Source of the DNA: Brooklawnia propionicigenes
GTDB lineage: Bacteria; Actinomycetota; Actinomycetes; Propionibacteriales; Propionibacteriaceae
Assembly: GCF_030297015.1 (NCBI RefSeq)
Contig: NZ_AP028056.1
Coordinates: 1,932,939 to 1,996,938 of the forward strand
Reading direction: 5' to 3'
DNA length: 64,000 nucleotides
In this document: in pieces, positions 3,201 through 32,751 of the stretch
Position numbering within the stretch: position 1 is the stretch's first letter
How the letters are laid out: each line of letters starts with the position of its first letter
Notes under the pieces: model-generated
Told to the model about the DNA's origin: nothing
The model's database searches: none
Seen by the model: the letters and a program-made list of their open reading frames with translations, nothing else
Position numbers and translations under genes: made by a program

Positions 3201-3810
3201 CCTCGAAGCACTCGAACGCGGAGGCACCGTCGGCAGGCTCCGCGCCGAGACCGCACTCATACGTGCCCGACAGCTCGATGAACGCCTGAGCCACCGGCTC
3301 GAACAACTCGACGAGGCCACCAACCTTGTCGCCGTGCCCGCCGTCATCCGCGGCGCCGCACTCGTCGTCCCCAGTGCACTCCTCGCGACCGGTGCCGAGC
3401 CTGAAGCGCAGACCTTCGCACGTCAGACCGAGGAAGTCGAGCGTCGAGCCGTCGAAGCTGTGCTTGCTGCCGAGCGAGCACTCGGACGGGAACCGGTCGA
3501 GATGCCGCGCAACAACCCCGGCTACGACATCCAGTCCACCGACCAGAGCGGCCTCGTCCACTACATCGAGGTCAAGGGCCGCATCGAAGGCTCCGACACG
3601 TTCACCATAACCACGAACGAGATTACCTTCGCCCAGACCCAATGCGACCGTCACCGGCTCGCCCTGGTCGAGGTCTCGACCAGTGGTGCCGCCAACGACC
3701 AGTTGCGCTACGTGAGCGACGCCTTCACCCACCTTGAGCCATCCGCGACCACCCGCTCCTACAACGAGGTCTGGCGCGACTACTGGGAACGCGGAGGACC
3801 ACCGCGATGA
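208..3810 (+). CDS. SNF2-family helicase with C-terminal DUF3883 domain (Hma/DISARM DrmD-like)
   Basis: A 1200-residue SNF2 superfamily 2 ATPase. The GTG start at 208 has a good GGAAGGAG site at 193-200. Walker A is GAGKT at residues 141-145, the DEAH box is at 239-242, and helicase motif VI (EQRFGRIHRIGQ) begins at about 632. The last 100 residues (NNPGYDI at about 1102, IEVKGR at 1120-1125) look like a DUF3883 PD-(D/E)XK-related domain. Long helicases of this type occur in DISARM (DrmD) and in helicase-methylase-ATPase defence loci, where they are thought to translocate on or remodel invading DNA. Its stop overlaps the next start (ATGA). No DrmA, DrmB or DrmC is present, so I read the locus as Hma-like rather than DISARM. 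Family is certain; system name is inference. Confidence 0.88.
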   Translation: MTEATTDATLTLATLRAGQRLRGLVPGQTVTLIAIDPIDAELFEVFYRDDSGRSGARAITDADAARFEIAGDFDSAPAYDADPDEFRLAAEALRIKYAALYDPMVAVNSSDVDPLPHQIRAVYEELLPRIPLRFLLADDPGAGKTIMAGLYLKELILRSDCERAIIVAPGGLVEQWREELSQKFDLRFEIFSRQMVDDAQGRNVFAEHPFLIARMDQLSRSEDLTEQLGEVTWDVAVVDEAHRMSAHYSSWAGEVDETRRFKLGRLLSETAHNFLLMTATPHAGKEEDFQLFMSLLDRDRFEGQYRQGVHRTDTDGLMRRMVKEDLLTFEGKPLFPERKAYTVEYELSPAERDLYEQVTDYVRTEMGRAERIAQAGDKKRGNNVGFALTVLQRRLASSPEAILRSLERRQQRLDTKLREMQRITDDARFSTSIASHIDEWTTGKTTLDFGSDALPAFSVDDFDDFDEETTDEERAQFEEQADQVVDLATAAQTIPELRAEIAILEDLIKVARRVRLQDDDKKWVQLRTILDEQLLTHDGSGDARKIIIFTEHRDTLDYLQAKITAQFGRADSVITIHGGTRREDRKLARERFTHNPDTVVLLATDAAGEGLNLQRAHLMVNYDLPWNPNRIEQRFGRIHRIGQREVCHLWNMVAKDTREGDVFTRLLAKIDQMSIAYNGNLFNVLGDADAFQERSLRDLLIEAIRYGDQPQIKAKLDRIIDAGVSHGLDEMLAERALHPEMFSALNLDEVRARMEKARERRLQPGYIAAFFLPALTRLGGRIRKREKGRYEITRVPARVIDAARRLNRWAPVAEQYERVTFELSRMHPDGLADASLIAPGHPLLHAVIEATIDDLGPTLKQGTVLVDRRSKQTDAPMLMFSVEQRIENTVADADTVSHHFDYPLLEQDGTVTVSAAPPYLEFDRPDSTEAEAVAEIAGSDWARQNHEKLVRAWAYREGLQPRMDEIKTRLGIETARTRAQVKDRLLAEINHWDREHNRLEALERGGTVGRLRAETALIRARQLDERLSHRLEQLDEATNLVAVPAVIRGAALVVPSALLATGAEPEAQTFARQTEEVERRAVEAVLAAERALGREPVEMPRNNPGYDIQSTDQSGLVHYIEVKGRIEGSDTFTITTNEITFAQTQCDRHRLALVEVSTSGAANDQLRYVSDAFTHLEPSATTRSYNEVWRDYWERGGPPR

Positions 3811-6635: not shown

Positions 6636-6638
6636 GTC

Positions 6639-7757
6639 GTGCCTGGCAGTCGAGATCAAGCCCGGAGCGGTGGCGCAGCGGCGCGTCGCTCTGGCGCGGA
6701 CCTGACTCCGTTCCGGGCCATCGCGGAGTCGGTCAGCGCCGAGGGCGGCGAACTCGTAGAGCAGGTGTCGGCTCTGATCGACCAGGCGCAGGCGTTCGCG
6801 GCCGCGCAGGTGAACGCGACCTTGACGCTGCGGAACTGGTACATCGGTCGCTTGATCGATGTGGCCGTGCTGCGCGAAGGACGCGCCGGGCACGACCAGG
6901 AACTTGTTGCGTCGCTGGCGCAACAACTGACCTCACGGTACGGGCGAGGCTACGACCGAACGAACCTGTATCGGATGGTGCGATTCTCCCAGCAGTTCAC
7001 CGAGCCCGAACTTGTTGCGTCACTGGCGCAACAAGTCAGTTGGACCCACTTCCGCGAGCTGCTTCCGCTCGCAACCGACGACGCACGAGCCTTCTACGTG
7101 AAGGAGATCATCGACCGCCACCTCAGCGTCCGTGACCTGCGCCACGCCATCTCCCGCAAGGCGTTCGAGCGCCGTGAGATCGCGGACTCGCAGATTCCCG
7201 AGGGCTCGGCAGTCCCGTTGGATGCCTTCCGCGACCCGATGCTGCTGGACATGCTCGGGCTGGCCGACACCTTCTTGGAGCGCGACCTCGAAGCGGCTCT
7301 GCGCCACGACATGGAGTCGTTCCTGTTGGAGGTCGGTCGCGGGTGGGCGTTCGTCGAACGCCAGAAGCGCATGACCTTCGATGGAGACGACTACTACCTC
7401 GACTTGCTGTTCTACTCCCGTCCACTGCGTCGGCTGATCGCGGTGGAGTTGAAGGTCGGCAAGTTCAAGCCGAGCTACCAGGGGCAGATGAATTTCTACC
7501 TGAAGTGGCTGGATCGGCACGAACGCCAGGCAGACGAGAATCCGCCCATCGGCCTCATCCTGTGTACCGAGGCGAGCCGCGACCAGATCGAGCTGCTCGA
7601 ACTGCACAAGGACGGGATCGTGGTCGCCGAATACTGGACGACCCTGCCTCCGAAGGCGGAGCTCCAGGCCCGTATCCAAGCGGTCTACCGGGAGGCGCAG
7701 GAGCGGATCGCCCGCAGGCAGCTGACCGCAGCGGCGGAAGAAGACATTGATGAGTAG
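6639..7757 (+). CDS. DUF1016 (YhcG-like) PD-(D/E)XK nuclease family protein
   Basis: A 372-residue DUF1016 protein starting at GTG 6639. The N-terminal half carries the duplicated ELVASLAQQ helices typical of DUF1016_N, around residues 85-130. The C-terminal half has the PD-(D/E)XK core: D255 in YYLDLLFY, then E270-L-K272 in IAVELKVGKF, followed by YQGQMNFYL. Catalytic residues look intact, so a nuclease is plausible; the substrate is unknown. It sits between the methyltransferase and the ATPase, 3 bp and 61 bp away, on the same strand. In Hma-type loci such insertions between core genes have been described as embedded candidate defences. It may instead be an integral subunit. Confidence 0.85.
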   Translation: MPGSRDQARSGGAAARRSGADLTPFRAIAESVSAEGGELVEQVSALIDQAQAFAAAQVNATLTLRNWYIGRLIDVAVLREGRAGHDQELVASLAQQLTSRYGRGYDRTNLYRMVRFSQQFTEPELVASLAQQVSWTHFRELLPLATDDARAFYVKEIIDRHLSVRDLRHAISRKAFERREIADSQIPEGSAVPLDAFRDPMLLDMLGLADTFLERDLEAALRHDMESFLLEVGRGWAFVERQKRMTFDGDDYYLDLLFYSRPLRRLIAVELKVGKFKPSYQGQMNFYLKWLDRHERQADENPPIGLILCTEASRDQIELLELHKDGIVVAEYWTTLPPKAELQARIQAVYREAQERIARRQLTAAAEEDIDE

Positions 7758-7818
7758 GGATTGGCAGGCTCTGAACAGGGCCTCGTCGGCAGCAAGTAGT
7801 GGGTTCTAGGAGACAACG

Positions 7819-10800
7819 ATGGCGATGAACAACCGAGATCGAGTGGGCAAGGCGTTCGACCTGCTCTCCGAGGGGCTCCTGGATGAGGTCGATGAGGTGA
7901 TGACGCGGGCCTATAAGACTCCGGACTGGCCGGCCGCGTGGGCGAAGGACGACGCCCAGCGTCAGGGCGGTCCTCCGCGCACATATACGAAGCATGACGT
8001 GCAGGTACAGCTTCGCGCCATCACCGAGCAGGGCTATCACTTCAAGGACGTGCTCTCCCGTGCGCAGCAGGGCTTCGCGTCCGAGCTTCGAGAGACCCGG
8101 AACCTCTGGGCACACAACGAGCCCTTCAGCTCTGACGATGCGTCGCGGGCGCTGGACACGATTGAGCGTCTGCTGCACGCGGTCGGCGCGGTCGATTCCG
8201 CCGAGGACGTGCGGAAACTGCGCGTCGATCTGCAGCGCACAGTGTTTGAAGACCAGACCCGGAAGCAGGTCAAGCGCACGAAGGTGTCGCTCGAACCTGG
8301 CTCCGGGCTGCGTCCGTGGCGCGAGGTGATCCGGCCGCACGATGACGTGGCGCGCGGTGCGTTCACCGCGTCGGAGTTCGCGGCCGACCTGCACCTGGTG
8401 CACACCGGGCAGGCGACGAGCCCCGAGTACGGGGATCCGGTCGAGTTCTTCACTCGCACCTATCTCACCGAGGGCTTGCGTGACCTGCTGTCGCGCGCAC
8501 TTCGCCGCCTGAACGGCGAGGCAGGCGCCAGCCCAGTGGTGAACCTTCAGACCAACTTCGGCGGCGGCAAGACCCACTCGATGCTGGCGCTGTACCACCT
8601 GTTCAGCGGCACTCCGGTCAAGGACTTCCCTCAGGAACTCCAGGAACTCATCGCCGCGAACGGCAACCCCGACCTCGGCGCGCTCGATGTCCGACGGGTC
8701 GCCCTCGTCGGCACCTACCTGAAGGCCGGCTCGCCGATCATCAAGGATGACGGCACCGAGGTTCGCACGCTTTGGGGTGAACTGGCCTGGCAGCTCGGCG
8801 GGCGTGAAGCCTACGACCTGATCGCCGAGGACGACCGTGCCGGCACCAACCCCGGTGAGGCACTGCGCACCCTGATCGTGCGCTACTCGCCCTCGCTGAT
8901 CCTGATCGACGAATGGGTCGCCTACGCGCGCCAGCTCGTCACGGACAAGGAACTCCCGTCCGGTTCGTTCGAGACGCAGTTCACCTTCGCCCAGTCCCTG
9001 ACAGAGATCGTGCGTTCCGTTCCGGGCGTGATGCTCGTCGTGTCGATCCCGGCATCCGACACGGGCACCGAAGGACGTGGCAGCGACATCGAGATCGGTG
9101 GCGCGAACGGCCAGCTCGCGCTCGAACGCCTCCAGAACGTGATCCGCCGCGTCGCGGACCAGTGGCGGCCATCCAGCAAGGACGAGTCGTTCGAGATCGT
9201 GCGCCGCCGGCTGTTCCAGGCGCCGAACGCCGAAGGACTCACGACCATCTCGGCAGTGGCGCGCAGCTTCACGAATCTCTACCGGAACAACACCGCGCTG
9301 TTCCCTCGCGATGCAGCGTCGCCGAACGACGAGTACGAGAAGCGCATCCGCGCCTCCTACCCGCTGCACCCCGAGTTGCTCGATCGCCTGTATGAGGACT
9401 GGTCGACGCTGGAGCGGTTCCAGCGCACCCGCGGCGTGCTGAAGCTCGTCTCGTCGATCGTGCACGAGCTGTGGGCATCCAACGACACGTCGCCATTGAT
9501 CCTGCCCGGCAATGTGCCGCTGGATGCGACGACGGTGAACACGGACCTGACGCAGTACCTCGAAGACCAGTGGAAGCCGATCATCGACTCTGACATCGAC
9601 GGCCCCGGATCGACCGCGCAGCAGATCGACCTCGACCGACCGAACCTCGGCCAGCGGTTCGTCACCCAGCGCATCGCACGCACGATCTTCATGGGCGCGG
9701 CCCCCAGGATCAAGAGCAGCCGGAAGGGACTCGACAAGCAGTACCTCTGGCTCGGCACTGCAGTCCCTGGTGACACGCTCGGGAACTTCGGCAGCTCCGT
9801 CGAGCTTCTCGCGCAGCGCTCGACCTACTTCTACGAGGAGCAGGGCCACTACTGGTTCGACACCCAACCCTCGGTCACCAAGACCGCGAACGACTACGCC
9901 GAACGTCTCCGCGAGGATGTCGAGACGGTGTGGAACGAGATCACCCGCCGCCTTCAAGGAGAAGAACGGGTCCGCGGCGTATTCGATCGGGTGCACATCG
10001 CGCCGTCGTCCTCGGCCGACATCCCGGACCTTGAAAACACGCGCCTGGTCATCGGACACCCGCGTCACGCCCGACGCAAGCAGGACGGAGCCGACTCGGC
10101 TGCGCACGCCTGGGTCCGTGACGCTATCGAGAGCAAGGGCGCGAGCCAGCGCATCCACCGCAACACGCTGATCTTCCTGATGGCCGACAAGAGCGAGCTG
10201 GAGAGCCTCGAAGCCGCGACCCGCAGCTACCTCGGCTGGAAGCGCGTTCAGGCCACCAGCGACAGCCTCAACCTGTCGGCACAGCAGCGCAAGCAGACTG
10301 ACGACTGGGTCTCTCGGCTCGATCAGACCGTCTCCGACCGCATCCGCGACACTTTCGTGTGGGCGGTCTACCCTGAGCAGTTCGACCCGACCAAGCCGTT
10401 CGAGCTCGTCGCCGACAGAGTGCCCGACTCCGGCGGGCGCTCGCTGGCTGAGCGTGTCAGCGCCAAGCTTGGTCGGGAGGATCAGCTCGTCACCGACTTC
10501 GGTGCGCCGATTCTCGGCTCAACGCTGCACAACGAGCTCGGTGCTCTGTGGCGCGACTCCGGTGAGATCACCGTCGGTGAGTTGTGGGGTTACTTCACCC
10601 GCTACACGTATCTGCCCCGTCTCGTCCGACGCGAGGTGCTCGACAGTGCCATCGAACAGTCGCTCTCGGCAGTGCTCGTCGACAACGAGCGCTTTGCCAT
10701 CGCTTCGGGGAAAGATGCTGGCCGCTACCGTAGCCTGCTCGTGGCGCCGAACCCCAACACCAGGATTCAGGTCACCGACAGCACACTGCTCATCGAGACC

Positions 10801-11214
10801 GAGCGCGCCCAGAAGCAGGCCGATGCCGACCGGATCGCAGCTATACGTGAGGCTGCGATGAACGCCTCCACAACCGACGGCGACTCCGCTCCCGTCGGGC
10901 CGGTTGACTTCGTGTGGACGGGTAGTTCGTCTGCCGAGGGCGATGAGCCGTCCGAGGCCGAGTCTGCACTGGAGGCAGTCCTTGCCCGGTTCTTCGGATC
11001 GGTGAAGATCGACTCCGACCGTTACGCCCGCGACATCGGCAACGTGACCCGCGAGGTGATCGACCGACTCGCCGGTGCAGGCGCGCGACTCGACATCACC
11101 ATCGACATTCAGGCAACCAAGCCCGGGGGCTTCGATGAGTCCGAGGTCCGCACGATCGGCGAGAACGCCCGCGTCCTCAAGTTCGACCCCAGCTCCGGCT
11201 TCGAGAAGAGCTGA
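7819..11214 (+). CDS. DUF499 ATPase with N-terminal Swt1-type HEPN domain
   Basis: A 1131-residue AAA-like DUF499 ATPase starting at ATG 7819. The first 140 residues resemble a Swt1/HEPN module and contain an RNLWAH motif (R94-x4-H99), the sequence form of HEPN ribonuclease active sites. Walker A is FGGGKTH with K251; Walker B is LILIDEW with D364-E365. The C-terminal 150 residues are acidic and lower in complexity. DUF499 proteins recur beside DUF1156 methyltransferases and large SNF2 helicases, and this trio defines the system here. The gap of 61 bp before it is the largest in the operon, so an internal promoter is possible. Whether the HEPN site cleaves RNA is inference from the motif alone. 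Confidence 0.85.
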   Translation: MAMNNRDRVGKAFDLLSEGLLDEVDEVMTRAYKTPDWPAAWAKDDAQRQGGPPRTYTKHDVQVQLRAITEQGYHFKDVLSRAQQGFASELRETRNLWAHNEPFSSDDASRALDTIERLLHAVGAVDSAEDVRKLRVDLQRTVFEDQTRKQVKRTKVSLEPGSGLRPWREVIRPHDDVARGAFTASEFAADLHLVHTGQATSPEYGDPVEFFTRTYLTEGLRDLLSRALRRLNGEAGASPVVNLQTNFGGGKTHSMLALYHLFSGTPVKDFPQELQELIAANGNPDLGALDVRRVALVGTYLKAGSPIIKDDGTEVRTLWGELAWQLGGREAYDLIAEDDRAGTNPGEALRTLIVRYSPSLILIDEWVAYARQLVTDKELPSGSFETQFTFAQSLTEIVRSVPGVMLVVSIPASDTGTEGRGSDIEIGGANGQLALERLQNVIRRVADQWRPSSKDESFEIVRRRLFQAPNAEGLTTISAVARSFTNLYRNNTALFPRDAASPNDEYEKRIRASYPLHPELLDRLYEDWSTLERFQRTRGVLKLVSSIVHELWASNDTSPLILPGNVPLDATTVNTDLTQYLEDQWKPIIDSDIDGPGSTAQQIDLDRPNLGQRFVTQRIARTIFMGAAPRIKSSRKGLDKQYLWLGTAVPGDTLGNFGSSVELLAQRSTYFYEEQGHYWFDTQPSVTKTANDYAERLREDVETVWNEITRRLQGEERVRGVFDRVHIAPSSSADIPDLENTRLVIGHPRHARRKQDGADSAAHAWVRDAIESKGASQRIHRNTLIFLMADKSELESLEAATRSYLGWKRVQATSDSLNLSAQQRKQTDDWVSRLDQTVSDRIRDTFVWAVYPEQFDPTKPFELVADRVPDSGGRSLAERVSAKLGREDQLVTDFGAPILGSTLHNELGALWRDSGEITVGELWGYFTRYTYLPRLVRREVLDSAIEQSLSAVLVDNERFAIASGKDAGRYRSLLVAPNPNTRIQVTDSTLLIETERAQKQADADRIAAIREAAMNASTTDGDSAPVGPVDFVWTGSSSAEGDEPSEAESALEAVLARFFGSVKIDSDRYARDIGNVTREVIDRLAGAGARLDITIDIQATKPGGFDESEVRTIGENARVLKFDPSSGFEKS

Positions 11215-11222
11215 GGGTAGCG

Positions 11223-12614
11223 GTGGCTCGATTCGGAAACGATCAGACGAACATCGGTCGCCTCGATGTCCGCACGGTGGACGAAGGTGGTCGAGTTGAG
11301 GCCTTCTTCGTTCCGACCGAGCTACCACATGAAGAGTCGTCGGCACACCGGCGCTTGGCTGAAGGTGTGAAGCTCGTGGAGCTCGACGCTGCAACGGGCA
11401 TCCTGAAGATTCACCCCATCAACACACTCTCAAACCACAGCGAGTACCTTGGCCCGAAGTACGAGCAGGTGCAGACGCTTTCCCTGGAAACGTCGTTGCT
11501 GGATGAGTATTTCGAGGGCTCCGACTTGGAGTCAATCTTTGAGACGCTACCGCCCGGATTCGTCAAGGACTTCGCCTACGGCCTCGGGCTGCTCAAGGAC
11601 TGCAACCGGCTGATTCGGTTGATCGAGACCAACACTCCCTGCACAGAGATCATCTTCACTGACGGCAACAGCGCCGCAATCAACGGGACAGGGTTCCACC
11701 TCGGCCTATCGCGGTTCGCTGCGATCTGGGCCGAGATCGGTCGGATCAATGACCGGGGAAATCGTGCGGCGGGTCGAGTGAAGGACGTATTCGTACACAA
11801 CAACCTCGCCGCGACGCTTGGTCTCGCCAGCGCGGACTTCTCGCTTGGGCGACACCCGGACTCGCGCGTGATCGCGAAGGCCGCCGACGGGATCGAAGAA
11901 CTCAGTAGCGTTGAACGTGATGCTTTGGTCGAAGCGGTTGCGTCCGAGTCGGCAGCGATAGCAGCTGGATCACCCCAGAAGTTTCAGCAGCTCAAGCGAG
12001 ACATCGAGCTCGTCAGCCTTGACCGCCTCATCGAGGCGTACGCAGAGGCCTTGGAACAGGGCAAGGCCGAACCGTACTGGCAAGCCTTCTTCGATGACAA
12101 CGCCTTTGCGCTGCAACAGGTCTTCGGGGCCCCAATGGTAAGTGTGCGTTCTGGAGCGAACGTAGGCGGTCGGGGACTCTCTGGAAGCGGCGACAAGATC
12201 GCTGACTACCTGTTCAAGAACTCGCTCACGAACAACGTTGCTCTGGTGGAGATCAAGAAGCCGGCCACGCAGCTGCTGGAAGCGCGTGAGTACCGGCAGG
12301 GTGTATTCGGTCCATCGAAGGAGCTCAACGGCGCAGTCTCCCAGGTACTCGATCAGGCGTACAACCTGACGAAGAACCTCACCGGCCTGAAGGAAAGCTC
12401 GCGTCAATGGGACTTGGAGTCCTACGCGGTCTCCTGCTTCGTGGTTGCCGGACGGACACCATCGGCCAGCGATCCTGCAAGACAGAAGTCGTTCGAGTTG
12501 TATCGCGCGAACTCCCGCAGCGTGACGATCGTGACCTACGACGAGATTCTTGAGCGACTGAGACTGCTTCGCGACTTCCTTACGCCGGCCTCGCCCACAG
12601 CCGAGGAGGTCTGA
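11223..12614 (+). CDS. sduA: Shedu-like DUF4263 nuclease (SduA family)
   Basis: A 463-residue protein, GTG start 11223, 8 bp after the ATPase gene. The C-terminal third has the DUF4263 nuclease pattern: KIADYLFKN, then LVEIKKP with E343-x-K345, then YRQGVFGPSKELNGAVSQVL. This combination is characteristic of the single-gene Shedu defence nuclease SduA, in which a PD-(D/E)XK domain cuts DNA. The N-terminal 300 residues are unassigned and in Shedu proteins usually act as a sensor or regulator. It is co-directional and tightly packed, so it is probably co-transcribed with the Hma core. It could work alone or serve as the restriction arm of the locus. Confidence 0.82.
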   Translation: MARFGNDQTNIGRLDVRTVDEGGRVEAFFVPTELPHEESSAHRRLAEGVKLVELDAATGILKIHPINTLSNHSEYLGPKYEQVQTLSLETSLLDEYFEGSDLESIFETLPPGFVKDFAYGLGLLKDCNRLIRLIETNTPCTEIIFTDGNSAAINGTGFHLGLSRFAAIWAEIGRINDRGNRAAGRVKDVFVHNNLAATLGLASADFSLGRHPDSRVIAKAADGIEELSSVERDALVEAVASESAAIAAGSPQKFQQLKRDIELVSLDRLIEAYAEALEQGKAEPYWQAFFDDNAFALQQVFGAPMVSVRSGANVGGRGLSGSGDKIADYLFKNSLTNNVALVEIKKPATQLLEAREYRQGVFGPSKELNGAVSQVLDQAYNLTKNLTGLKESSRQWDLESYAVSCFVVAGRTPSASDPARQKSFELYRANSRSVTIVTYDEILERLRLLRDFLTPASPTAEEV

Positions 12615-12619
12615 TCGAG

Positions 12620-13684
12620 ATGGCACGCCCACCTGCATGGAGGCACACGCTTGACGAGGCCCGGCGACAGGCGCTTGTCGCGATCGACTTCTACAACCGT
12701 CCCGGTGATCGACGCAGCTTCAGTGACTTCATCGTCCACATCCACCTCGCGTGGCAGAACCTACTTCACGCTGACCGCATGCGCCGCAAGGCCGAGATTT
12801 TCTACCGCGAATCGGGCGGTCGACGCATCTTCAAGCGAAACCCGGATGGCTCCAAGAAGACCTGGGACCTGAGCCAGTGCCTGAAGCACGAGTTCAAGGA
12901 CAACGACCCGATCAGAGCAAACGTCGAGTTCTTTGTCGGACTGCGAAACCACGTCGAACACCGCTTCCAGGATTCTGTACTGGTGGCGACCGCAGCCGAA
13001 GCGCACGCTTGCATCATCAACTTCGAGGCAGAACTTGTGCGCCGGTTCGGCTCCCGCGAGACGCTGGGTTCAGAGCTGAAGTTCCCAGTCTTCGTGCAGT
13101 CGCTCAGCCCTTCGAGGTACGAGGAGCAACGCAATCTCCGGCGCGGACTGCCGGCGGCCGTCTCAAGCTTCATCACTGAGTTCCAAGTCGGCCTACCTGA
13201 CGAGGTGCGCAGTGACGAGCGATTCGCCTACCGCCTCCTGCTGCTTCCGATGAAGGGACCGAAGACGGAGGCGGACCTCGCGCTCAACTTCGTGCGACAA
13301 GAAGACCTCAGCGAGGAGGAACTTCAGGCGCTCCTCGGACAAGAAGGCAGTGTGATCGTTGCCGAGAAGTACCGCGAAGCAGTGCACGGCGATGAGATGC
13401 TGCCCAAGGCGGCTGCGGCTGCGGTGGAGAAGCGCATTCCGTTCAAGTTCGGGGTCAACGACTTCACCGCCATCCGGAAGGCATGGCAGATCGGCCCGGC
13501 CAAGAGCGGTGACAAGGAACAGTTGCCGAAGTCAGACGGCTACTGCGTCTACTCACCCGCGTTCAAGCAGTTCGTATACCGGCCGAAACTCGTCGACCGG
13601 ATAGTCGGAGCGGTCGATACTGCCGAGAAGTACCAAGCGCTACTTGGCCGCTCACCGACCATGAAGGCTTCGGACGGAACCTGA
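12620..13684 (+). CDS. DUF3644 family protein with HEPN-like RNxxxH motif
   Basis: A 354-residue protein starting 5 bp after the Shedu gene. The N-terminal half (FYNRPGDRRSFSDFIVHIHLAWQNLLHA...KRNPDGSKKTWDLSQCL) matches the DUF3644 pattern as I recall it. At residues 109-114 it has RNHVEH, a good HEPN active-site motif inside a predicted helix. The C-terminal part (about 270-345) looks like a small separate domain. It is the last gene of the operon; its 3' end overlaps the 3' end of the broken cytosine methyltransferase gene on the other strand by 33 bp. DUF3644 proteins are often found in restriction and defence loci but have no settled role. An RNase-type effector is a reasonable inference. 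Confidence 0.75.
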   Translation: MARPPAWRHTLDEARRQALVAIDFYNRPGDRRSFSDFIVHIHLAWQNLLHADRMRRKAEIFYRESGGRRIFKRNPDGSKKTWDLSQCLKHEFKDNDPIRANVEFFVGLRNHVEHRFQDSVLVATAAEAHACIINFEAELVRRFGSRETLGSELKFPVFVQSLSPSRYEEQRNLRRGLPAAVSSFITEFQVGLPDEVRSDERFAYRLLLLPMKGPKTEADLALNFVRQEDLSEEELQALLGQEGSVIVAEKYREAVHGDEMLPKAAAAAVEKRIPFKFGVNDFTAIRKAWQIGPAKSGDKEQLPKSDGYCVYSPAFKQFVYRPKLVDRIVGAVDTAEKYQALLGRSPTMKASDGT

Positions 13685-16147: not shown

Positions 16148-16205
16148 GTGGCCTCGTTTTCGACCGTCACTATGGCCTCATTTTCAAGCGTCGTCGACAC
16201 TGGTG
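16148..16205. repeat. Right IS21 end: terminal inverted repeat plus target duplication CTGGTG
   Basis: Read inward from 16199 the sequence begins TGTCGACGACGCTTGAA and matches the left end with few mismatches across about 50 bp. CTGGTG at 16200-16205 is the second copy of the target duplication. Confidence 0.9.
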
Positions 16206-17143
16206 GGACAGTGCGATCGTCCCTCGCCGGGCTCGAACCTGGTCGAGGGTTTCCCCGCCGCGTGAGGAGTCGGTCGCCAGTGGGGTGCGGAACAGTGCGC
16301 CGGGCGACGGCGAAGATGCGGAAGCGTTGGTGAGGAGCGCCGACAAGGGAAGCCGGTAGGCCGATCCACCGTGCATCCAGCCGCAGGTCGGCCAGATCGC
16401 CGAGAACGGCGCCGAGAGCCCGTAGAAGGTCGAGCTGCGTTGTCTCCCAGATGCCACGGGTCGGATTCCACGCCGTGAAGGGTTGCGTCGTCTGGGGTTG
16501 CATCGCCGGGGTTGCGTTGTTCATGGTCGTCTCCTTTTGTGGCGTGCCGCGTGGCGGGTGAGGACAGCAGCCCGCGGACGTTCTCGATGACGACCCATTC
16601 AGGTTGAAGCGCGTCGATCGCTTCGGCCATGTGTGCCCACAGTCCCGAGCGCGTCCCTGGCGCGAGGCCGGCGCGCTTGCCGACCGTGGACACGTCCTGG
16701 CATGGAAACCCACCGATGAGAATGTCCACGGGCTCGACCAGGCTCCAGTCGATGGTCGTGATGTCGCCCAGGTTCGGGGCGTCGGGCCAGTGCCTGGCGA
16801 AGACGCGGGCGACGGGCTCGTTGAGTTCAGAGAACCACACCGTTCTGGCGTTGAAGACGTGCTCGACGGCGAGGTCGAGGCCGCCGTAGCCGCTGAACAG
16901 CGACCCGATCCTGAGTTGAGATCGCTGTTTGCGTTGAGTTCGTGCATGAAGAGCGCTCCGGCTGACAGTCGTCCCCGACATCCGGTGCCTCGTCGTGAAC
17001 CGATGCCGAGCTGGTCACCTGTCAGGTGCACGACTCCGACACGCATCCGATGACCGTCCACGCCGACCGGAGCCACCCCGCCCAGAACCCGCTGGCACCG
17101 TCACCGACGCCTCGTCCTCAGGCGTTTGCTCCGACCTCTTCCT

Positions 17144-17171
17144 GAGGCCACACGCGTCTTGCAGATCGAGG
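17144..17171 (+). repeat. 28-bp motif shared with 31032-31059, upstream of the relaxase
   Basis: The block starts GAGGCCACACGC and continues TCTTGCAGATCGAGG. It matches 25 of 28 bases of the segment at 31032-31059. Both copies lie in divergent intergenic regions of the island, here 73 bp upstream of the relaxase start. It could be an operator for an island regulator or part of an origin of transfer. Confidence 0.6.
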
Positions 17172-17243
17172 TTGTGCGGGCGTTGCCGCGGCAGAAGTCA
17201 CCGGGTGCGGGTGCTCACCTGCCCGGCAGGAGCGGAGGTGAGC

Positions 17244-20200
17244 ATGACGGTTTCGATGCGTGTGATGTCGGCGGGTGATGGCTACAAGTACCTGCTCAAG
17301 ACGGTTGCGGCAGCCGACGGCGACAGGCCGCTCTCGACGCCGCTCACTCGCTACTACATGGAGGAAGGAACCCCGCCCGGTCGCTGGCTCGGCGCAGGCG
17401 TAGCGGCCCTCGGCAAGGGCGAGATTCAGGTGGGTGACCGAGTATCGGCACACCAGCTCCAGCTACTGATGGGGACTGGCCATGATCCGATCACCGACCA
17501 ACCACTCGGTCGTGCCTTCCCGACCTACAAGAGCCAGGAAGCGCGGATCGAAGCGCGGATCGCAGACCTCGAGCCGACGATGACGCCTGGCGCCAAGGGC
17601 GAGGCCGTCGCGCAGATCGTTGCCGAGGAGACGGTCCGGAGCACACGCCGTGCGGTGGCCGGCTTCGACTTCACCTTCTCGATCCCGAAGCCCGCGTCGG
17701 TGCTGTGGGCGGTCGCCGATGCCGGGGTCCAATCGCTGATTGCCGAGGCGCATCATCGAGCGGTTGCGGAGGTGGTTGCGTTCATGGAGCGCGAGGTTGC
17801 AGCCACCCGCACGGGCGCAACCGCCGGGGACGGCGCGGTTGCACAGGTCGATGTCACCGGGCTGATCGCGACCGCGTTCGATCACTTCGACTCCCGCGCC
17901 GGCGACCCCCACCTCCACACGCACGTCGTCATCAGCAACAAGGCCAAGACCGTCCTCGATAGGAAGTGGCGCTCGCTCGACGGCAGACCGATGCACGCTG
18001 CCGTAGTGGCGCTCTCGGAACTTCACGAAGCCGTGTTCGCCGACCACATGACGCGCACCTTCGGGGTCTCCTGGGAGGCGCGCGAGATGGGTCGGGACCG
18101 GAACCCAGCATGGGCGATCACGGGAGTTCCGGAAGAGCTGGTCTCGGAGTTCTCTACCCGCGCCCGCCACATCGACGCCGAGAAGAACCGGCTCATCGCC
18201 GAGTACGTTGCCCAGCACGGACGCCAGCCATCGAACACGACGATCCTCAAACTGCGAGCCCAAGCCACACTCGCGACCCGCCCCGAGAAGCAGGTCCGAT
18301 CCCTTGCTGATCTCACCTCGGAGTGGCGGACCCGCGCGACGAAGACCTTGGGACGGGACGCGACGGCGTGGGCACGCGAAGTCACCGACAACAACAAGCC
18401 GCTGCTCCTGCGGGCCGACGACGTACCGCTCGACGTGATCGGTGAGTTGGGACGCTCGGTCGTCGAGGTGGTCGGTGAGAAGCGCTCGACCTGGCGACGA
18501 TGGAATCTCATGGCCGAGGCATCCCGGCAGACGATGGGCTGGCGGTTCGCCACAATGCAGGACCGGGAAGCCATCGTCGCGATGGTCGCCGACGCCGCCG
18601 AGCTCGTCTCGCTCCGTCTGACGCCACCTGAGCTCGCCACCTCGCCGGTCGTGTTCCGTCGGCCCGATGGCACCTCAGTGTTCCGGCCGAAGAGCTCGAC
18701 CGTGTTCACCTCCGAGTCGCAGCTCGCGGCCGAGGACAGACTCCTCGAACGCGCCGCCAACCTCAGCGCGCCGACTGTGCCGCTCACGACGGTCGAGAAG
18801 ATCACGCGCAACCCCGACGCGGATGGCCGGATGCTCGGCGACGACCAAGCCGACGCCCTGACCCGCATCGCGGTGTCAGGACGCCTCCTCGATGTTCTCG
18901 TCGGCCCCGCCGGGGCGGGCAAGACCACCGCCATGAACGCACTCCGCCGCGCATGGGAAGCCGAACACGGACCTGGTTCCGTCGTCGGCCTCGCACCATC
19001 AGCGGTCGCCGCCCAGATCCTCGCCGACGACCTCGGGATCACGACGGAGAACACAGCGAAGTGGTGGCAGAACCACCTGATCCACGGCACTACGTTCGAG
19101 GCGGGACAGCTCGTCATCATCGACGAAGCCTCCCTGGCCGGCGCCCTGTCGCTGGACCGCCTCACCCACCTCGCCCAAGTCGCGGGTGCGAAGGTGCTGC
19201 TGGTCGGCGACTACGCCCAACTGCAATCCGTGGACGCCGGGGGTGCGTTCGCAATGATCGCCGGAGACAGAGCCGACGCGCCTGAACTGGTCGACGTTCA
19301 CCGCTTCACCCATACCTGGGAGAAGACTGCCTCACTCGAACTGCGTCACGGACGCACCCAAGCCATCGACACCTACCTTGCTCACCAGCGCATCACCGAC
19401 GGTGACGCCGAGGCCATGACCGATGCGGCCTACAACGCATGGCGCGCTGACCGCGACGTGGGACTCGTGTCTGTGCTGATTGCCGAGACCCATGAAGATG
19501 TGACCGCGCTGAACGGTCGCGCCCGCGCCGATCTGATCCTCAACGAGACGCTGAACCCCGACCGTGAAGTCGAACTGCGCGACGGCACCGCCGCAGGCGT
19601 CGGCGACACCATCATCACGCGACTCAACAACCGCGACCTCCGCACCCTGGCCGGGCGGGACTGGGTGCGCAACGGCGACATCTGGACCGTCACCGCCGTC
19701 GGCGACGACGGGACCATCACCATCGCACGCGACTACGGGACCGGCACCACCGTCCGCGACGACGGAACCATCAGAGCTCGGAGGCGTGGACGCAGGTTCG
19801 GCGGCAGCATCCTCCTCCCAGCGGCGTACGTGGCCGAGCAGGTCGATCTCGGCTACGCGGTCACCGCCTACCGCGCCCAGGGCATCACGACCGACACTGC
19901 GCACGTACTGGTCGAACCGACATCGACGCGGGAGACCTTCTATGTCGCGATGACCCGAGGCCGGTACTCGAACCACGCCTACGTGACTCTCGACCGCGCC
20001 GACGACCATGCGCAGCCGCACCCCGGCGACGACCCGCATGCCACCGCGCGAAGCGTGCTCTACGGCGTTCTTCAGCACAGCGGGGCCGAACTCTCGGCGC
20101 ACGAGACCATCGTCGCCGAACAGGAACAGTGGGGCTCGATCGCCCAGCTCGCCGCCGAGTACGAGACCATCGCCGCCGCAGCCCAACACGACCGCTGGTC

Positions 20201-20852
20201 CACCCTCATCCGCGAATCTGGGCTCACCGACGAACAGGCCGAGAGCGCCATTGACTCTGATGCGTTCGGCCCGCTCACGGCTGAACTCCGCCGTGCTGAA
20301 GCCAACCATCACAACGTCGATGCCCTCCTGCCGCGCCTCGTCGCAGCGCGCGGATTCGATGACGCCGACGACATCGCCGCCGTCCTGCACTACCGGGTCG
20401 AGCGGGCCACCGGCCGCCCCGCAGGCTCGGGCCGGACCCGCAAGCCAACGCGACTTATCGCCGGCCTCATCCCACAGGCGCACGGCGTCATCGATGTTGA
20501 GATGCGAGCGGCTCTCGACGAGCGAGAGGAGCTCATCGCGGCACGCGCCGACGCCGTACTCGACGGCGCGCTGACCGAGAGCGCGCCGTGGACGAAGGCA
20601 ATCGGAACGCCGCCCGCCGACCGACGACGAGCCGCGACCTGGCGCAAGGCCGCCCGCGTGGTCGCCGCCTACCGCGACCGCTACCGCATCACCGACGACA
20701 CGCCCCTCGGAGCCCCACCCGAGTCGGCCGCCCAGAAGATCGACGCGGCACGAGCACGAACTGCTCTCGATCGAGTTCGTGGCTTCATCGCCGAGATGAG
20801 CGAAGCACCGCAGCATTCACAAGGACACTATGGCGTCGAGCGCTCACTGTGA
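17244..20852 (+). CDS. MobF-family conjugative relaxase/helicase (TraA/TrwC-like)
   Basis: A 1202-residue relaxase. I choose ATG 17244 because GGAGGTG lies just upstream at 17234-17240; upstream in-frame sequence is not protein-like. Candidate catalytic tyrosines are Y14 and Y16. The HUH metal site is GDPHLHTHV with H223, H225 and H227. The helicase domain has Walker A GPAGAGKTT (K560), VIIDEASLAG, and a UvrD-like C-terminal motif (YAVTAYRAQGITTD, ETFYVAMTRGR). The tail after about residue 930 is helical and charged. MobF relaxases nick oriT and pilot the strand through a type IV secretion system. No coupling protein or secretion genes are in the window, so the island is mobilisable at most, or those genes lie elsewhere. 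Confidence 0.93.
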   Translation: MTVSMRVMSAGDGYKYLLKTVAAADGDRPLSTPLTRYYMEEGTPPGRWLGAGVAALGKGEIQVGDRVSAHQLQLLMGTGHDPITDQPLGRAFPTYKSQEARIEARIADLEPTMTPGAKGEAVAQIVAEETVRSTRRAVAGFDFTFSIPKPASVLWAVADAGVQSLIAEAHHRAVAEVVAFMEREVAATRTGATAGDGAVAQVDVTGLIATAFDHFDSRAGDPHLHTHVVISNKAKTVLDRKWRSLDGRPMHAAVVALSELHEAVFADHMTRTFGVSWEAREMGRDRNPAWAITGVPEELVSEFSTRARHIDAEKNRLIAEYVAQHGRQPSNTTILKLRAQATLATRPEKQVRSLADLTSEWRTRATKTLGRDATAWAREVTDNNKPLLLRADDVPLDVIGELGRSVVEVVGEKRSTWRRWNLMAEASRQTMGWRFATMQDREAIVAMVADAAELVSLRLTPPELATSPVVFRRPDGTSVFRPKSSTVFTSESQLAAEDRLLERAANLSAPTVPLTTVEKITRNPDADGRMLGDDQADALTRIAVSGRLLDVLVGPAGAGKTTAMNALRRAWEAEHGPGSVVGLAPSAVAAQILADDLGITTENTAKWWQNHLIHGTTFEAGQLVIIDEASLAGALSLDRLTHLAQVAGAKVLLVGDYAQLQSVDAGGAFAMIAGDRADAPELVDVHRFTHTWEKTASLELRHGRTQAIDTYLAHQRITDGDAEAMTDAAYNAWRADRDVGLVSVLIAETHEDVTALNGRARADLILNETLNPDREVELRDGTAAGVGDTIITRLNNRDLRTLAGRDWVRNGDIWTVTAVGDDGTITIARDYGTGTTVRDDGTIRARRRGRRFGGSILLPAAYVAEQVDLGYAVTAYRAQGITTDTAHVLVEPTSTRETFYVAMTRGRYSNHAYVTLDRADDHAQPHPGDDPHATARSVLYGVLQHSGAELSAHETIVAEQEQWGSIAQLAAEYETIAAAAQHDRWSTLIRESGLTDEQAESAIDSDAFGPLTAELRRAEANHHNVDALLPRLVAARGFDDADDIAAVLHYRVERATGRPAGSGRTRKPTRLIAGLIPQAHGVIDVEMRAALDEREELIAARADAVLDGALTESAPWTKAIGTPPADRRRAATWRKAARVVAAYRDRYRITDDTPLGAPPESAAQKIDAARARTALDRVRGFIAEMSEAPQHSQGHYGVERSL

Positions 20853-20876: not shown

Positions 20877-22181
20877 TCAACATGCATCCGGGAGAAGTAC
20901 TTCTTCGATCACGCCTGCGCTTGCGGACGCACGTACACGAAGGGTAGGCACGTATCGTGCGCGGTGATCTTCACCGGTGACGGGATCGGAGTCATCCCAC
21001 TCGTGGACGACCACGCGCAGGGTGTTAGTAAGCCTCCCGATGAGCAGCGCAAGTGGGAACGGGCACCGCAACAGGAGGTGCACCTCGGCGTTGGAGTTGC
21101 CGTTCGACAGGGCACGAATGTGCGCGGCAACGTCGGCGGCGATCAGGCCTGCATAAGTGGGGTCGAGTAGCGTGCCGCTCGCGCTTGTGAGATGAAGCCA
21201 ACCCGCGAGGAACGGTTCGTGGGCCTCGATGTACCGAACGAAGGCGGTGTCGCTGCGTTGCGGCAGGAGATCGACATATACGGCTACGGAGGGCCGGCCG
21301 GTTGTGATCGCAGAACGACTTCGTCCCTCTGCTGCGATCTGTACTTGTGGTTGGGCGATGAACCGCGCTTCACCATCGCTCGCCCAGGTGGCACCCTGTT
21401 GGTCAATCACGTCCATGTATCCGATACGAGACGACGGCAAGGCTGCCCCGATTGTGAACGCCACGGAGAGATGAGCCCCTCCAGCGACGCGTAGGCGATG
21501 TGCCCCGGAACGAGTCACGGCATCGGGGAGGAGACCGATGGTGTCCTTGAGGTCTTGGAGCCCGCCGACGCTCGGAAGCCGCTCATGATCGGAGGGTCTG
21601 AGCCGGATATCCAGTTCGTCGCCGGTCCGGTCATACACCTGAGGCGTGTTTCGAGTCTGGAGGCTCAGGTGGAACGTCTTGTCAGTTACTTCGATTCGCT
21701 CGCGAAGAGACGCGATTCGGTGCCAGACGAAGCCACGGAGCAATGCAAGCAGACCGTTGCGTTCAGCGGGTTGCTGATCGACGCCGCTCAAGGTGCCGGG
21801 ACGAAGCTCTAGAAGACGGTCGGGAGCGTTGTAGTCTGTTCCGCCGCCTGCCGTCTTCACCGAGTTGGTGATGCCGAGTGCGAACACTTCGTGGTCGGCG
21901 TGTAGGTCGAGGAGTTGGGGGGCTTCCAGCGTCTTCACAACTCTGCTGTTCACCACGTCTGGTGTTGTCACGAGAACGCCGCCGGAGATGCCGGCCGCTA
22001 TCGCTTGCTTGAGTCGCGCCTCGGTATCGCCTGGTGGCAGATCGTCTCGGTCCCGCCAGACAGGGATGCCGGCGGCGCGGAAGAGCCAGGCGAGTTCCGC
22101 AGCAACATCCGTGCCATCGTTCTGGCGGTAGGAGATGAAGATAGGGTCTGCGGGATCAGGAGTGGCGGAATCGGATGTCAT
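20877..22181 (-). CDS. CBASS effector: TIR-SAVED fusion protein
   Basis: A 434-residue fusion. Residues 12-130 form a TIR domain (PIFISYRQNDG, IPVWRDRDDLPPGD, candidate catalytic Glu E54 in DTEARLK). From about residue 215 to the end is a SAVED domain (GGAHLSVAFTIGAALPSSRIG, and near the C-terminus VHLLLRCPFPLALLIG with VVVHEWDDSD). In studied TIR-SAVED proteins the cyclic nucleotide binds SAVED, the protein forms filaments, and TIR destroys NAD+. The start overlaps the JAB stop by ATGA, so it is the last gene of the CBASS operon. It converges on the relaxase gene 24 bp away. Confidence 0.9.
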   Translation of the reverse strand: MTSDSATPDPADPIFISYRQNDGTDVAAELAWLFRAAGIPVWRDRDDLPPGDTEARLKQAIAAGISGGVLVTTPDVVNSRVVKTLEAPQLLDLHADHEVFALGITNSVKTAGGGTDYNAPDRLLELRPGTLSGVDQQPAERNGLLALLRGFVWHRIASLRERIEVTDKTFHLSLQTRNTPQVYDRTGDELDIRLRPSDHERLPSVGGLQDLKDTIGLLPDAVTRSGAHRLRVAGGAHLSVAFTIGAALPSSRIGYMDVIDQQGATWASDGEARFIAQPQVQIAAEGRSRSAITTGRPSVAVYVDLLPQRSDTAFVRYIEAHEPFLAGWLHLTSASGTLLDPTYAGLIAADVAAHIRALSNGNSNAEVHLLLRCPFPLALLIGRLTNTLRVVVHEWDDSDPVTGEDHRARYVPTLRVRASASAGVIEEVLLPDAC

Positions 22182-22735
22182 GGCGTCTCCTTGTGTTCGT
22201 CGGGTATGGAGGCGGCGCGCTTCGCCGCGTCACTGGCATAGGGGCTGTCTCTAGCAGGCGCAGGAGGCAGCCTCTCGGGTACCACCGCCCAGATTCGGTC
22301 CCGTTGGATGAGCCAGGTTGCAGCGAGCACTCGTGCCGATGAATCGAACCCAGCGATGATGGCGACGAACCGATCAAACCCCAGGTCGGGGTCGCGCAGA
22401 TGGCGCATGTAGGACTGGAGATCGACCTCGCTCGGGGAGAGTGTTCCGGTCGGGTGGGTATGCCATTCGCCTATCCACTGGCTACGGTCCTCCAACCAGG
22501 CTGAGTCCGCGAGATGCCGGGCGTGGTCGAGGTCTCGCATAAAGGTGCGTTCGCCGCGGGTGGCGTTGGGTCCGGGTCCGCCGGCGTGTCGGATGCCGAT
22601 CCCATCAGTCGCGTCGTATCCGAGCAGGATGCCGCCAGTCTCGAACCCATCGATGGATCGCGAAGCTTCGCGCGCGATTGAGCTGAGCGCGACGTCAGTG
22701 ATCGTCACCGGAGGTACATCTCTTCGACCGGTCAT
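22178..22735 (-). CDS. cap3: CBASS JAB/MPN isopeptidase (Cap3-like)
   Basis: A 185-residue JAMM metalloprotease. I prefer ATG 22735, which overlaps the E1 stop as ATGA like the other junctions of this operon; an upstream GTG/ATG would overlap E1 by 55 bp. The JAMM motif is complete: E32 in FETGGILLG and H92-x-H94-x7-S102-x2-D105 in EWHTHPTGTLSPSEVD. Cap3 proteins remove the covalent bond that the E1/E2 machinery forms between the CD-NTase C-terminus and target proteins. Confidence 0.88.
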   Translation of the reverse strand: MTGRRDVPPVTITDVALSSIAREASRSIDGFETGGILLGYDATDGIGIRHAGGPGPNATRGERTFMRDLDHARHLADSAWLEDRSQWIGEWHTHPTGTLSPSEVDLQSYMRHLRDPDLGFDRFVAIIAGFDSSARVLAATWLIQRDRIWAVVPERLPPAPARDSPYASDAAKRAASIPDEHKETP

Positions 22736-24030
22736 CCTGGCGAGCAGGTCGGGCACGACGTGCGGGGTCTGGGGATGGACGACCACCGAACGTCGCCGGC
22801 TTGGCTGAGGTCGAACGGGGCTGCGAGGTCACCTGCTGGTCGGAGACCGATGATGGCGTGTTCGCCGGGAACCTGCTGGGTGTGGTCACCGTGAAGCGAT
22901 TCCAGCAACGTCGCGATGGCTACTTTCGCAGCGAACGTGCCGACGTATCGGAGATCAGGCGGCACAGCTGTCATTGGCTGATGGACGCGCCCGGTGCCGT
23001 AATCCAACTCCTGATCCGCCTCGGCGTCCATCGCACCCTGGTCTGCAAGCTGCTGCCGTAGACAGAGGAGACATCCGAACCGGGGAGTGGGACGCAGCCG
23101 GATGACCTCTCCAATCGAGCCATTGTCGAGCACACACGCCAAGATCGCCGCCTTTCGCGCGCGCCTGGAGAGGTGGCTGACGACGCGTCTGGGAGCAATA
23201 CCGTCTGCGGCACAGAGCACCAGATCGACGCGGTCGACGATGGGCCGGATGTAATGCGCCTCGGTAACCACGTCACGCCTGTGAGCCACCACTGTCTGCT
23301 GCGGCCAGTGCTGGGCGAGGTGGTCCTTCATAGCCGCTACCTTGAATCGCCCGACGCTTTCGGGTCCGAGAGCGTGGCGGAGCATGTTGTGCCAGAGGAA
23401 TCGGTCCGGGTCGACAAGCTCCACACGTCCGACTCCGTATCCTGCGAGCGCCTCTGCTGCTGCGCTCCCGATGCTGCCGCAGCCCACAACCATGACGCTA
23501 TTGGCGGCGAGCTGCTCGATCGGCCACTTGCCGGTCAACTGCGCCAGGCCAACAACGTGTGGCTCGATCTCGATAGGGAGCGGTTCCACACCGTCGCGTC
23601 GGACAGCCCATCCCGCAAACTCCGGAGCCCCGGCCTCCACCAGCTCTGGTGGAAGGTCGGGGTCGTGAGTGACAACCACGCCAAGGTTGTTGCCGGGGTC
23701 GGAGACGCCTGGCACCAACTTCCGAAAGTCCTTGAACCCGATAGAGATATCGGGGCGTCTGGACAAGAAGAGATGGTGAAGATGGGCGTCGTTAGAGACC
23801 ACTCTGATCCACTGAGCTGCATGCTGGGCGTCGCCCGAACGAAGCGCGGCGTACTCGCGCGGAACTTCGGCTGGAAGACGGATGTCTTTGCCGGTTTCCA
23901 CGGTCTGGACGACGTACATATCGTCTGCGGGAACGCGGCGGAGCACCAGCGATCCGCGCGAGAGGTCGGAGCCTGCGATCTTGGTGACCGCGTCTCGGGG
24001 CATCACGATGTAGGGATTACGGGGAGACAT
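22732..24030 (-). CDS. CBASS E1-like (ThiF) adenylating enzyme, separate from E2
   Basis: A 432-residue ThiF-type protein. I choose ATG 24030 (14-bp overlap with E2) over an upstream TTG. The adenylation domain starts at about residue 178 with VMVVGCGSIGSAAAEAL, then VELVDPDRFLWHNMLRH; a CLLCLRQQL pair and a C-terminal TSCPTCSPG pair could bind zinc or carry the catalytic cysteine. The N-terminal 170 residues are an unassigned domain. In most type II CBASS operons E1 and E2 are fused in Cap2; here they are two adjacent genes. It should activate the CD-NTase C-terminus as an adenylate and thioester. Confidence 0.86.
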   Translation of the reverse strand: MSPRNPYIVMPRDAVTKIAGSDLSRGSLVLRRVPADDMYVVQTVETGKDIRLPAEVPREYAALRSGDAQHAAQWIRVVSNDAHLHHLFLSRRPDISIGFKDFRKLVPGVSDPGNNLGVVVTHDPDLPPELVEAGAPEFAGWAVRRDGVEPLPIEIEPHVVGLAQLTGKWPIEQLAANSVMVVGCGSIGSAAAEALAGYGVGRVELVDPDRFLWHNMLRHALGPESVGRFKVAAMKDHLAQHWPQQTVVAHRRDVVTEAHYIRPIVDRVDLVLCAADGIAPRRVVSHLSRRARKAAILACVLDNGSIGEVIRLRPTPRFGCLLCLRQQLADQGAMDAEADQELDYGTGRVHQPMTAVPPDLRYVGTFAAKVAIATLLESLHGDHTQQVPGEHAIIGLRPAGDLAAPFDLSQAGDVRWSSIPRPRTSCPTCSPG

Positions 24031-28223: not shown

Positions 28224-28595
28224 ATGTTCCGCCTTATCTGGACGCTCAGCGTTCGCACCCGCGACTACCTGCTCCGCTACATGCCGAGCAACCGACTGCT
28301 CGCTGCCATCCGCACACGTCGCGGACTCAAGTGGGGGATACCCGCGATGCTGGTCGCGCTTCCGTACATCCTGATCGCCAGCATCTGCTCTGGCTCGGCA
28401 GCCGACGGCGGCCCGGGCTGGCTGCACCTCATCGTGCTGTGGGCATGCTGGAACGCGCTCAAGTTCATCATCATGGGACCCGTGAGCGTCGCTCTGCTCA
28501 TCCGTGCGCGCCTGCACGAGGCTGCGGTCCGTCGTCACCAGCGCCATGACTCGCGCGTCGAGGCGAGCCTGCATGAGCCAGCCCTTCGTGTTTAG
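28224..28595 (+). CDS. Small membrane protein of unknown function
   Basis: A 123-residue protein from ATG 28224; in-frame upstream ATGs exist, but the intervening sequence holds a hairpin. Two hydrophobic segments are visible: GIPAMLVALPYILIASIC and LHLIVLWACWNALKFIIMGPVSVALLI. The basic N-terminus (LLRYMPSNRLLAAIRTRRGL) suggests a cytoplasmic start. Its 3' end overlaps the recombinase gene by 4 bp in convergent orientation. I recognise the family only as a recurrent small protein of actinobacterial mobile elements; no function can be assigned. Confidence 0.65.
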   Translation: MFRLIWTLSVRTRDYLLRYMPSNRLLAAIRTRRGLKWGIPAMLVALPYILIASICSGSAADGGPGWLHLIVLWACWNALKFIIMGPVSVALLIRARLHEAAVRRHQRHDSRVEASLHEPALRV

Positions 28596-30724: not shown

Positions 30725-31017
30725 GGTGGGCCTCCTTGCGGGAGCGATACTTGCTCTCGATTCTCTCGCGCACCCCTGACAGTCCGAAGGGCTGGAGGTG
30801 CCTCGGCGAACTCGTTGGGCAGCTGGAGCCCGTAGGGATCGGGTTCGCCAGCGACCCAGGCCCGGTGCCGCGCCTCGGCGATGCCGAGCACCCACTCGAT
30901 GAGCTTGCCCAGGTCAGCCTCATCCCGCCGCGTCACCCGCAGCCTCAGACTCCTCGCCTCACCAGCCATGACGAACAGGTGCACGCCCGCACGCACGATG
31001 TACGAACTCTGTTCCAA
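30721..31017 (-). CDS. Hypothetical 98-residue protein coupled to the serine recombinase
   Basis: A TTG start at 31017 with AGGA seven bases upstream; the stop overlaps the recombinase ATG (ATGA), so the two are translationally coupled. The product starts MEQSSYIVRAGVHLFVMAGE, has a basic middle (RLRVTRRDEADLGKLIEW) and ends Pro/Gly-rich. No known domain is recognised. Coupling suggests an accessory factor, for example a recombination directionality factor, but nothing in the sequence proves it. Confidence 0.6.
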   Translation of the reverse strand: MEQSSYIVRAGVHLFVMAGEARSLRLRVTRRDEADLGKLIEWVLGIAEARHRAWVAGEPDPYGLQLPNEFAEAPPALRTVRGARENREQVSLPQGGPP

Positions 31018-31031
31018 GATCGTTCCTCACA

Positions 31032-31059: not shown

Positions 31060-31069
31060 ATCAGCCACT

Positions 31070-31093: not shown

Positions 31094-31102
31094 CCGTAGA
31101 AC

Positions 31103-31947: not shown

Positions 31948-31959
31948 CGAAAGGGAGTC

Positions 31960-32748: not shown

Positions 32749-32751
32749 GCC

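Follow-up and report, generated by a model that had tools for sequence, protein, structure and literature searches.

Described systems

The closest described counterparts of the sequence considered here, which occurs twice in a 64,000-nucleotide stretch of Brooklawnia propionicigenes DNA (the window), are the oriT regions served by TrwC of R388 and TraI of F. The relaxase encoded beside one copy belongs to the same family and has the HUH motif (PMC4176350, PMC5422253). As in R388 and F, there is one site per element, close to the relaxase gene; the site is a short stretch, specific in sequence and intolerant of all but a few changes, and in many relatives an inverted repeat adjoins it. The present site differs from R388 and F in its sequence, in an invariant block of about 20 bp and in having no stable hairpin at the copy next to the relaxase gene (copy A); inverted repeats are also lacking at some HUH nic sites (PMC4176350).

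A second comparison is with the MGI/iOriT islands, such as MGIVflInd1 and SGI1, which resemble the element carrying the other copy (copy B) in having their own integrase, cargo, a helper-like oriT site and no relaxase or T4SS genes (PMC5704250, PMC11389934). Unlike those islands, the elements described here are actinobacterial and very small (5.7 and 7.6 kb), have a serine rather than a tyrosine integrase, target several kinds of tRNA 3' end and have a proposed MobF helper; in addition, sister elements carry two inverted sites.

The element carrying copy A resembles actinobacterial T4SS-type ICEs with a MOBF relaxase, as these are described in the relevant passages of PMC3218068, in its relaxase family, VirD4-type coupling protein, Prim-Pol and chromosomal integration. 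Those passages give no oriT sequence, and they called serine-recombinase integration into tRNA genes rare in 2011. Streptococcal IMEs that reside in an ICE oriT offer a further parallel, since in several relatives of the present locus cargo lies directly beside the predicted oriT; according to the relevant part of that source, however, the streptococcal IMEs bring their own relaxase and integrate into nic, whereas here the motif is whole and the adjoining inserts are varied (PMC7563843). Relaxase-less IMEs were listed for Firmicutes and Proteobacteria only in a 2017 review, with one IME known in Actinobacteria (PMC5704250), and a paper on an oriT database mentions, in its main text, none from Actinobacteria or of MobF type (PMC11701681). 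In the open-licence literature, no oriT for actinobacterial MobF relaxases was found, a prior description elsewhere being possible, and the core string of the motif occurred in unrelated papers only. On the best reading, the actinobacterial MobF group with this oriT/nic region is undescribed.

A repeat shared by two mobile elements

The two 28-bp copies, 17144-17171 (GAGGCCACACGCGTCTTGCAGATCGAGG) and 31032-31059 (GAGGCGACACGCCTCTTGCAGATCAAGG), lie in the same orientation, are identical at 25/28 positions and have in common an exact 11-bp core, TCTTGCAGATC. That core alone is unremarkable, 26/100 shuffles yielding at least two matches at up to one mismatch; the whole motif is far from chance, and the repeat picked out in a sequence-only reading of the window is real. 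Within the 21 bp that define the motif (consensus CACGCNTCTTGCAGATCRAGG), copy B agrees with copy A at 20/21 core positions, with a change at the R position, plus the N position. Both copies are indeed in divergent intergenic regions, copy A between genes for a C5-methyltransferase (minus strand) and the relaxase (plus strand), copy B between a 98-aa ORF (minus strand) and a zinc-ribbon ORF (plus strand). They had also been placed on one shared island, which does not hold: a mobile-element boundary at 29093/29094 separates them. The features on the copy A side are as follows.

16184-16981, minus strand: C5-cytosine methyltransferase-like ORF, divergent from the relaxase gene; conserved to the left of the site in many relatives
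17151-17171, plus strand as written: copy A, 21 bp, CACGCGTCTTGCAGATCGAGG; predicted oriT/nic region of the ICE
17244-20852, plus strand: MobF (TrwC-like) relaxase-helicase, 1202 aa, HUH motif HLHTHVV
29063-29093, plus strand: right end of the ICE (att side), ending TCCACC; doubles as the left junction of the small element

Copy A belongs to an ICE of about 76 kb that starts at a tRNA-Ala gene (C1:1885671-1885745) and ends at 29093 of the window; three related ICEs match the window up to about 29093, then differ from it and from each other. At its tRNA-Ala end the ICE has a serine integrase, 51% identical to the recombinase near copy B, and it encodes a VirD4/TraG-type coupling protein, the part of a T4SS that was recognised, together with a Prim-Pol protein. 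A search at up to three mismatches found copy A to be the sole motif copy in the ICE. The protein of 17244-20852 matches Pfam TrwC (E=4e-86), scores above the cut-off of NCBIfam MobF and has PDB matches to TraI/TrwC.

A TIR-SAVED protein and a JAB-domain protein encoded beside the relaxase (20877-22786) are likely an anti-phage defence pair carried by the ICE. A probable defence gene cluster (208-13684 of the window; also L004:17069-18001) comprises a helicase with a NO VEIN domain, a DUF1156 methylase and DUF499, Shedu-like and DUF3644 genes. The start of this cluster is 92% identical to the sequence adjoining the sister island at 1447 kb.

Distribution of the motif

A scan of GTDB genomes for the exact motif found the 21-bp consensus in at least 120 stretches, with a chance expectation of about 1 by our estimate. 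The matches listed come from actinobacteria of many families, except for one metagenome bin labelled Spirochaetia. In the window's family the motif, at up to two mismatches, occurs in 55/199 genomes, and a reversed-pattern control was nearly empty across the same 199. Phage records gave partial, chance-level matches only. Plasmid records were nearly devoid of the exact motif, with one near-exact copy, from Micrococcus luteus, and otherwise partial matches. The 21 bp are near-invariant, in part because the search pattern fixed the motif, while the left and right flanks vary freely.

Most further copies in the genus have one of two contexts: a MobF relaxase gene just downstream, or a position between the gene for a 98-aa protein (sm98) with its serine recombinase and a zinc-ribbon-like (ZnR) or TetR gene. 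Over half of the distinct sites (75/147) lie 30-200 bp upstream of a relaxase N-terminus; 16 of the 147 adjoin sm98 or the recombinase and 8 are upstream of TetR. A methyltransferase is the sole classed neighbour in 7/147, a second type of ZnR in 6/147 and a partial relaxase in 1/147, and 34/147 fall outside all the context classes used. Across genomes, the motif is neither scattered at random sites nor absent from related islands, the two outcomes named beforehand as speaking against it.

Association with MobF relaxases

Among the 39 relaxases of the window's family that are at least 73% identical to the window's and have a complete N-terminus, 38 have the motif upstream on the same strand, relaxase and motif places having been paired by hand. 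It lies within about 100 bp in 32, is displaced 1.2-3.4 kb upstream behind inserted cargo in 6 and is absent in 1; these hand tallies depend on the two-mismatch limit of the family scan. The relaxase without a nearby site is G017:C129, 83% identical to the window's. Other DNA likewise separates site from relaxase at five further loci (L024, L032, L045, L092 and L130), as in the displaced family cases. At 50-69% relaxase identity, variant sites such as CACACGTCTTTCTGTAGAGG and CACACGTCTGGCACCAGGGTGCC stand at the equivalent place, and two sequenced plasmids have a relaxase-associated variant there, CACCGTTTGCAGAACGAGG. A scan for the TTTC variant returned 13 places and 0 control matches, of which 11 were at or upstream of same-family relaxases and 2 elsewhere. 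The window's genome encodes a second MobF relaxase, 53% identical (G000:C1:1243997-1245115; L236, L275), with a site of the CACACGTCTGGCACCAGGGTGCC type.

In a tree of 78 relaxase domains, 1 change suffices for the exact site type and 1 likewise for the TTTC type, and 0/500 shuffles were as low; site labels were set by hand for rows with a displaced exact site and for five variants missed by the script. Site type tracks the relaxase tree, but the argument is weakened because site and relaxase gene are adjacent, so that co-inheritance of neighbours alone would make site type follow the tree.

The association with relaxases and the clade-tracking site types support well one suggestion of the sequence-only reading, that the repeat is an oriT. 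The motif is probably the oriT/nic-region recognition sequence of an actinobacterial clade of MobF (TrwC/TraI-like) relaxases, copy A being carried by an ICE and copy B by an element without a relaxase.

The main rival, which we consider unlikely, is that the motif is an operator, at which a regulator of the ICE or the host would control the relaxase gene and the promoters of the small-element integrase and regulator, thereby coordinating excision with transfer. SetCD and AcaCD coordinate in this way the excision of islands mobilized by SXT and IncC elements. The positions suit an operator: the motif stands 57-124 bp upstream of the start codons of relaxase, ZnR and TetR genes, facing the same way in each case, and 33-52 bp from where sm98 begins, facing the opposite way, and copies A and B are both in divergent promoter regions. 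A transfer regulon would, however, need several copies, one per regulated operon, whereas the whole ICE has a single one; and although the site is mostly close to the promoter, it is 1.2-3.4 kb away at 6/39 relaxases, being retained where 1-4 kb of cargo intervenes before the relaxase gene. Site type moreover follows relaxase clade, and the ZnR and TetR genes have adjoining palindromes of their own. The common operator, likewise proposed from the sequence, accordingly fits worse than an oriT, given one copy per relaxase-bearing ICE, kept at a distance from the gene, and the separate ZnR and TetR palindromes.

Flanking hairpins and the strand assignment

Flanks were compared with mononucleotide shuffles. 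On the relaxase side the best stems exceed those of the shuffles in length (z 9.2, 63 distinct flanks), an excess that need not all be oriT structure, as the right-hand flank set includes probable regulator operators; on the other side stems are not longer than shuffled (z 0.3, 94 flanks). Hairpins directly adjoin the conserved TGCA at three divergent relaxase loci and have z of -4.9, -1.6 and -2.4 when folded as DNA. DNA folding gave no stable hairpin adjoining copy A, so that the inverted repeat of the R388 nic site has no counterpart there. These hairpins fit an R388-like layout of inverted repeat, sequence-specific stretch and nick, in which case the nick would be on the bottom strand and the relaxase gene would be transferred last; because of the missing hairpin at copy A, the strand assignment is of low confidence. 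At copy B, the adjoining palindrome (31070-31093) is a candidate for either a bottom-strand hairpin or a ZnR operator.

Three other structural candidates were rejected. A hairpin within the motif loses its stems when the bases vary, the pyrimidine richness of the left flank is slight only, and a promoter reading finds no conserved -10 box downstream of the motif. A separate inverted repeat, GCTCACCT...AGGTGAGC (17213-17243), directly precedes the relaxase start codon and covers the likely ribosome-binding site; similar repeats are present in relatives.

The small element carrying copy B

Directly beyond the right end of the ICE is a small integrative element; such tandem accretion of IMEs and ICEs is well known. 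Its features, including the recombinase ORF that crosses its left boundary, are the following.

29094-34839, no strand: relaxase-less integrative element, 5.7 kb; attL CCACC ends at 29093, attR CCACC at 34839
29107 and 34808: inverted arms of the element, GGGAACACGC and GCGTGTTCCC, respectively
28592-30895, minus strand: large serine recombinase ORF (Pfam Resolvase and Recombinase)
30721-31017, minus strand: sm98, 98-aa ORF, conserved between recombinase and motif
31039-31059, plus strand: copy B, 21 bp, CACGCCTCTTGCAGATCAAGG; predicted oriT of the small element
31070-31093, no strand: palindrome TACGTCGGTGACGAAACCGACGTA, adjoining copy B and conserved upstream of ZnR genes
31103-31819, plus strand: zinc-ribbon-like protein ZnR, 238 aa; a TetR gene instead in sister elements
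31960-32748, plus strand: CAAX-protease-like cargo protein (Pfam)
32752-33363, plus strand: TetR-family regulator (Pfam)

The element's own part of the recombinase ORF is approximately residues 1-605, the remainder being ICE sequence read through the junction (homology break at 29093). The left end of the element also occurs in other genomes, where it comes after the CCACC that closes tRNA-Lys, tRNA-Val and several tRNA-Ala genes at the 3' end. When the element's ORFs were scanned with Pfam, no relaxase or T4SS genes were recognised, and ZnR and sm98 match no family among the Pfam and NCBIfam profiles. Close homologues of the recombinase have the motif within some 400 bp in about 21 of 24 cases (paired by hand). 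The motif points away from the recombinase, and most of these cases have no clade relaxase nearby. Because this integrase-plus-site module recurs at many tRNA genes, usually far from a clade relaxase, the small element looks like a mobilizable island, and would seem to use the ICE relaxase in trans. The link between transfer and recombination genes that had been read from the repeat is real, but more likely joins two elements, a relaxase-bearing ICE and a relaxase-less element with its own integrase.

In the proposed pathway, copy A would serve as the oriT of the ICE at the tRNA-Ala gene, whose relaxase is encoded at 17244-20852. The 5.7-kb element was inserted at the right att site of the ICE by its own serine integrase. 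The ICE relaxase would nick copy B on the excised small element, the nicked strand would pass through the T4SS of the ICE, and in the recipient the element's integrase would insert it at a tRNA 3' end.

It is quite improbable that only copy A is an oriT and that copy B is a decayed or accidental one on an element no longer moved by conjugation. Many small elements are found in genomes without a same-clade relaxase and some recombinase copies have stop codons, as decay would have it; yet the 21 bp are no less exactly preserved in copy B and its relatives than in the relaxase-linked copies, and this conservation spans many genera and many tRNA genes, which decay would not give.

A role as a recombination target, whether as the serine recombinase's att or resolution site or as a place where transposons prefer to insert, is hardly credible. 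Left and right flanks do combine freely at the motif edges, and a tyrosine-recombinase transposon adjoins the site in L092, with the same end type beside the site in L024, L120 and L149. The att sites of the recombinase are nevertheless elsewhere, at 29093 and 34839, the boundaries of the element to which copy B is internal, leaving the earlier suggestion of a recombinase site unsupported. Most motif copies, furthermore, accompany relaxases and have no close homologue of this recombinase in the neighbourhood, and the motif stays whole beside insertions; insertion next to an oriT is compatible with the oriT reading.

In unrelated genomes (L092, L024, L120, L149), the transposon-like end GAATCAAC[T/G]CAGAGTTGAC is no more than about 15 bp away from the motif, and by our reading of the ORFs at L092:2083-5868, those resembling a tyrosine-recombinase transposon lie between site and relaxase. 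A transposon-like element may target the oriT region.

Two other delimitations were rejected. The block CTGCGTGTTCCC at 31835 is not the right end of the element, which is at 34839, because the sequence common to sister islands at different tRNA genes runs on well past the block; and the element boundary at 29093 disposes of two oriTs of one element bounding a 13.9-kb unit. Farther right in the window are a serine recombinase remnant (36575-37448), about 65% identical in nucleotides to 28592-30895 and situated between two IS5-like element copies, and a probable Wadjet system (40470-48464), in which a JetD-like ORF adjoins an ORF of 1489 aa, with other large same-strand ORFs besides.

Sister elements and dual sites

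The window's genome has two extra motif copies, at C1:1439668 (plus strand) and 1440398 (minus strand), an inverted pair that flanks a TetR gene and adjoins a related serine recombinase; this sister element at 1439 kb carries a restriction-modification set. Elements of the TetR type have two such inward-facing sites around the TetR gene. In L286 one site is of the exact type and the other of the TTTC type, and in L112 one is exact and the second a TGGC-like variant, these two being the only examples of mixed pairs. The site type in L286 changes while the adjoining TetR palindrome stays, for which a relaxase-specificity cassette is an easier explanation than the regulator's operator, a further point against the operator.

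Other inverted motif pairs were seen in L010, L153 and L161, about 100 bp apart with related sequence between them; in G007 and G054 these pairs stand some 2.4-2.7 kb away from a recombinase that is 60% identical to the window's.

A broader suggestion, offered tentatively, is that actinobacteria may host widespread small relaxase-less islands, each with a serine integrase, a regulator and oriT copies some 20 bp long, for which MobF ICEs serve as helpers, and that the dual oriTs of the TetR type can differ in relaxase-clade specificity. If so, one island could use two kinds of helper.

Implications

MobF relaxases are well represented in Actinobacteria, yet a description of their oriT was not found in the open-licence literature. 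The 20-bp signature and its clade variants would allow such oriTs to be found in any genome, and would match each mobile island to the ICE that could move it, while the natural site variants would make relaxase specificity testable. The finding also points to relaxase-less islands in Actinobacteria, including one that carries a restriction-modification set; for this phylum the 2017 review had a single IME and none without a relaxase (PMC5704250).
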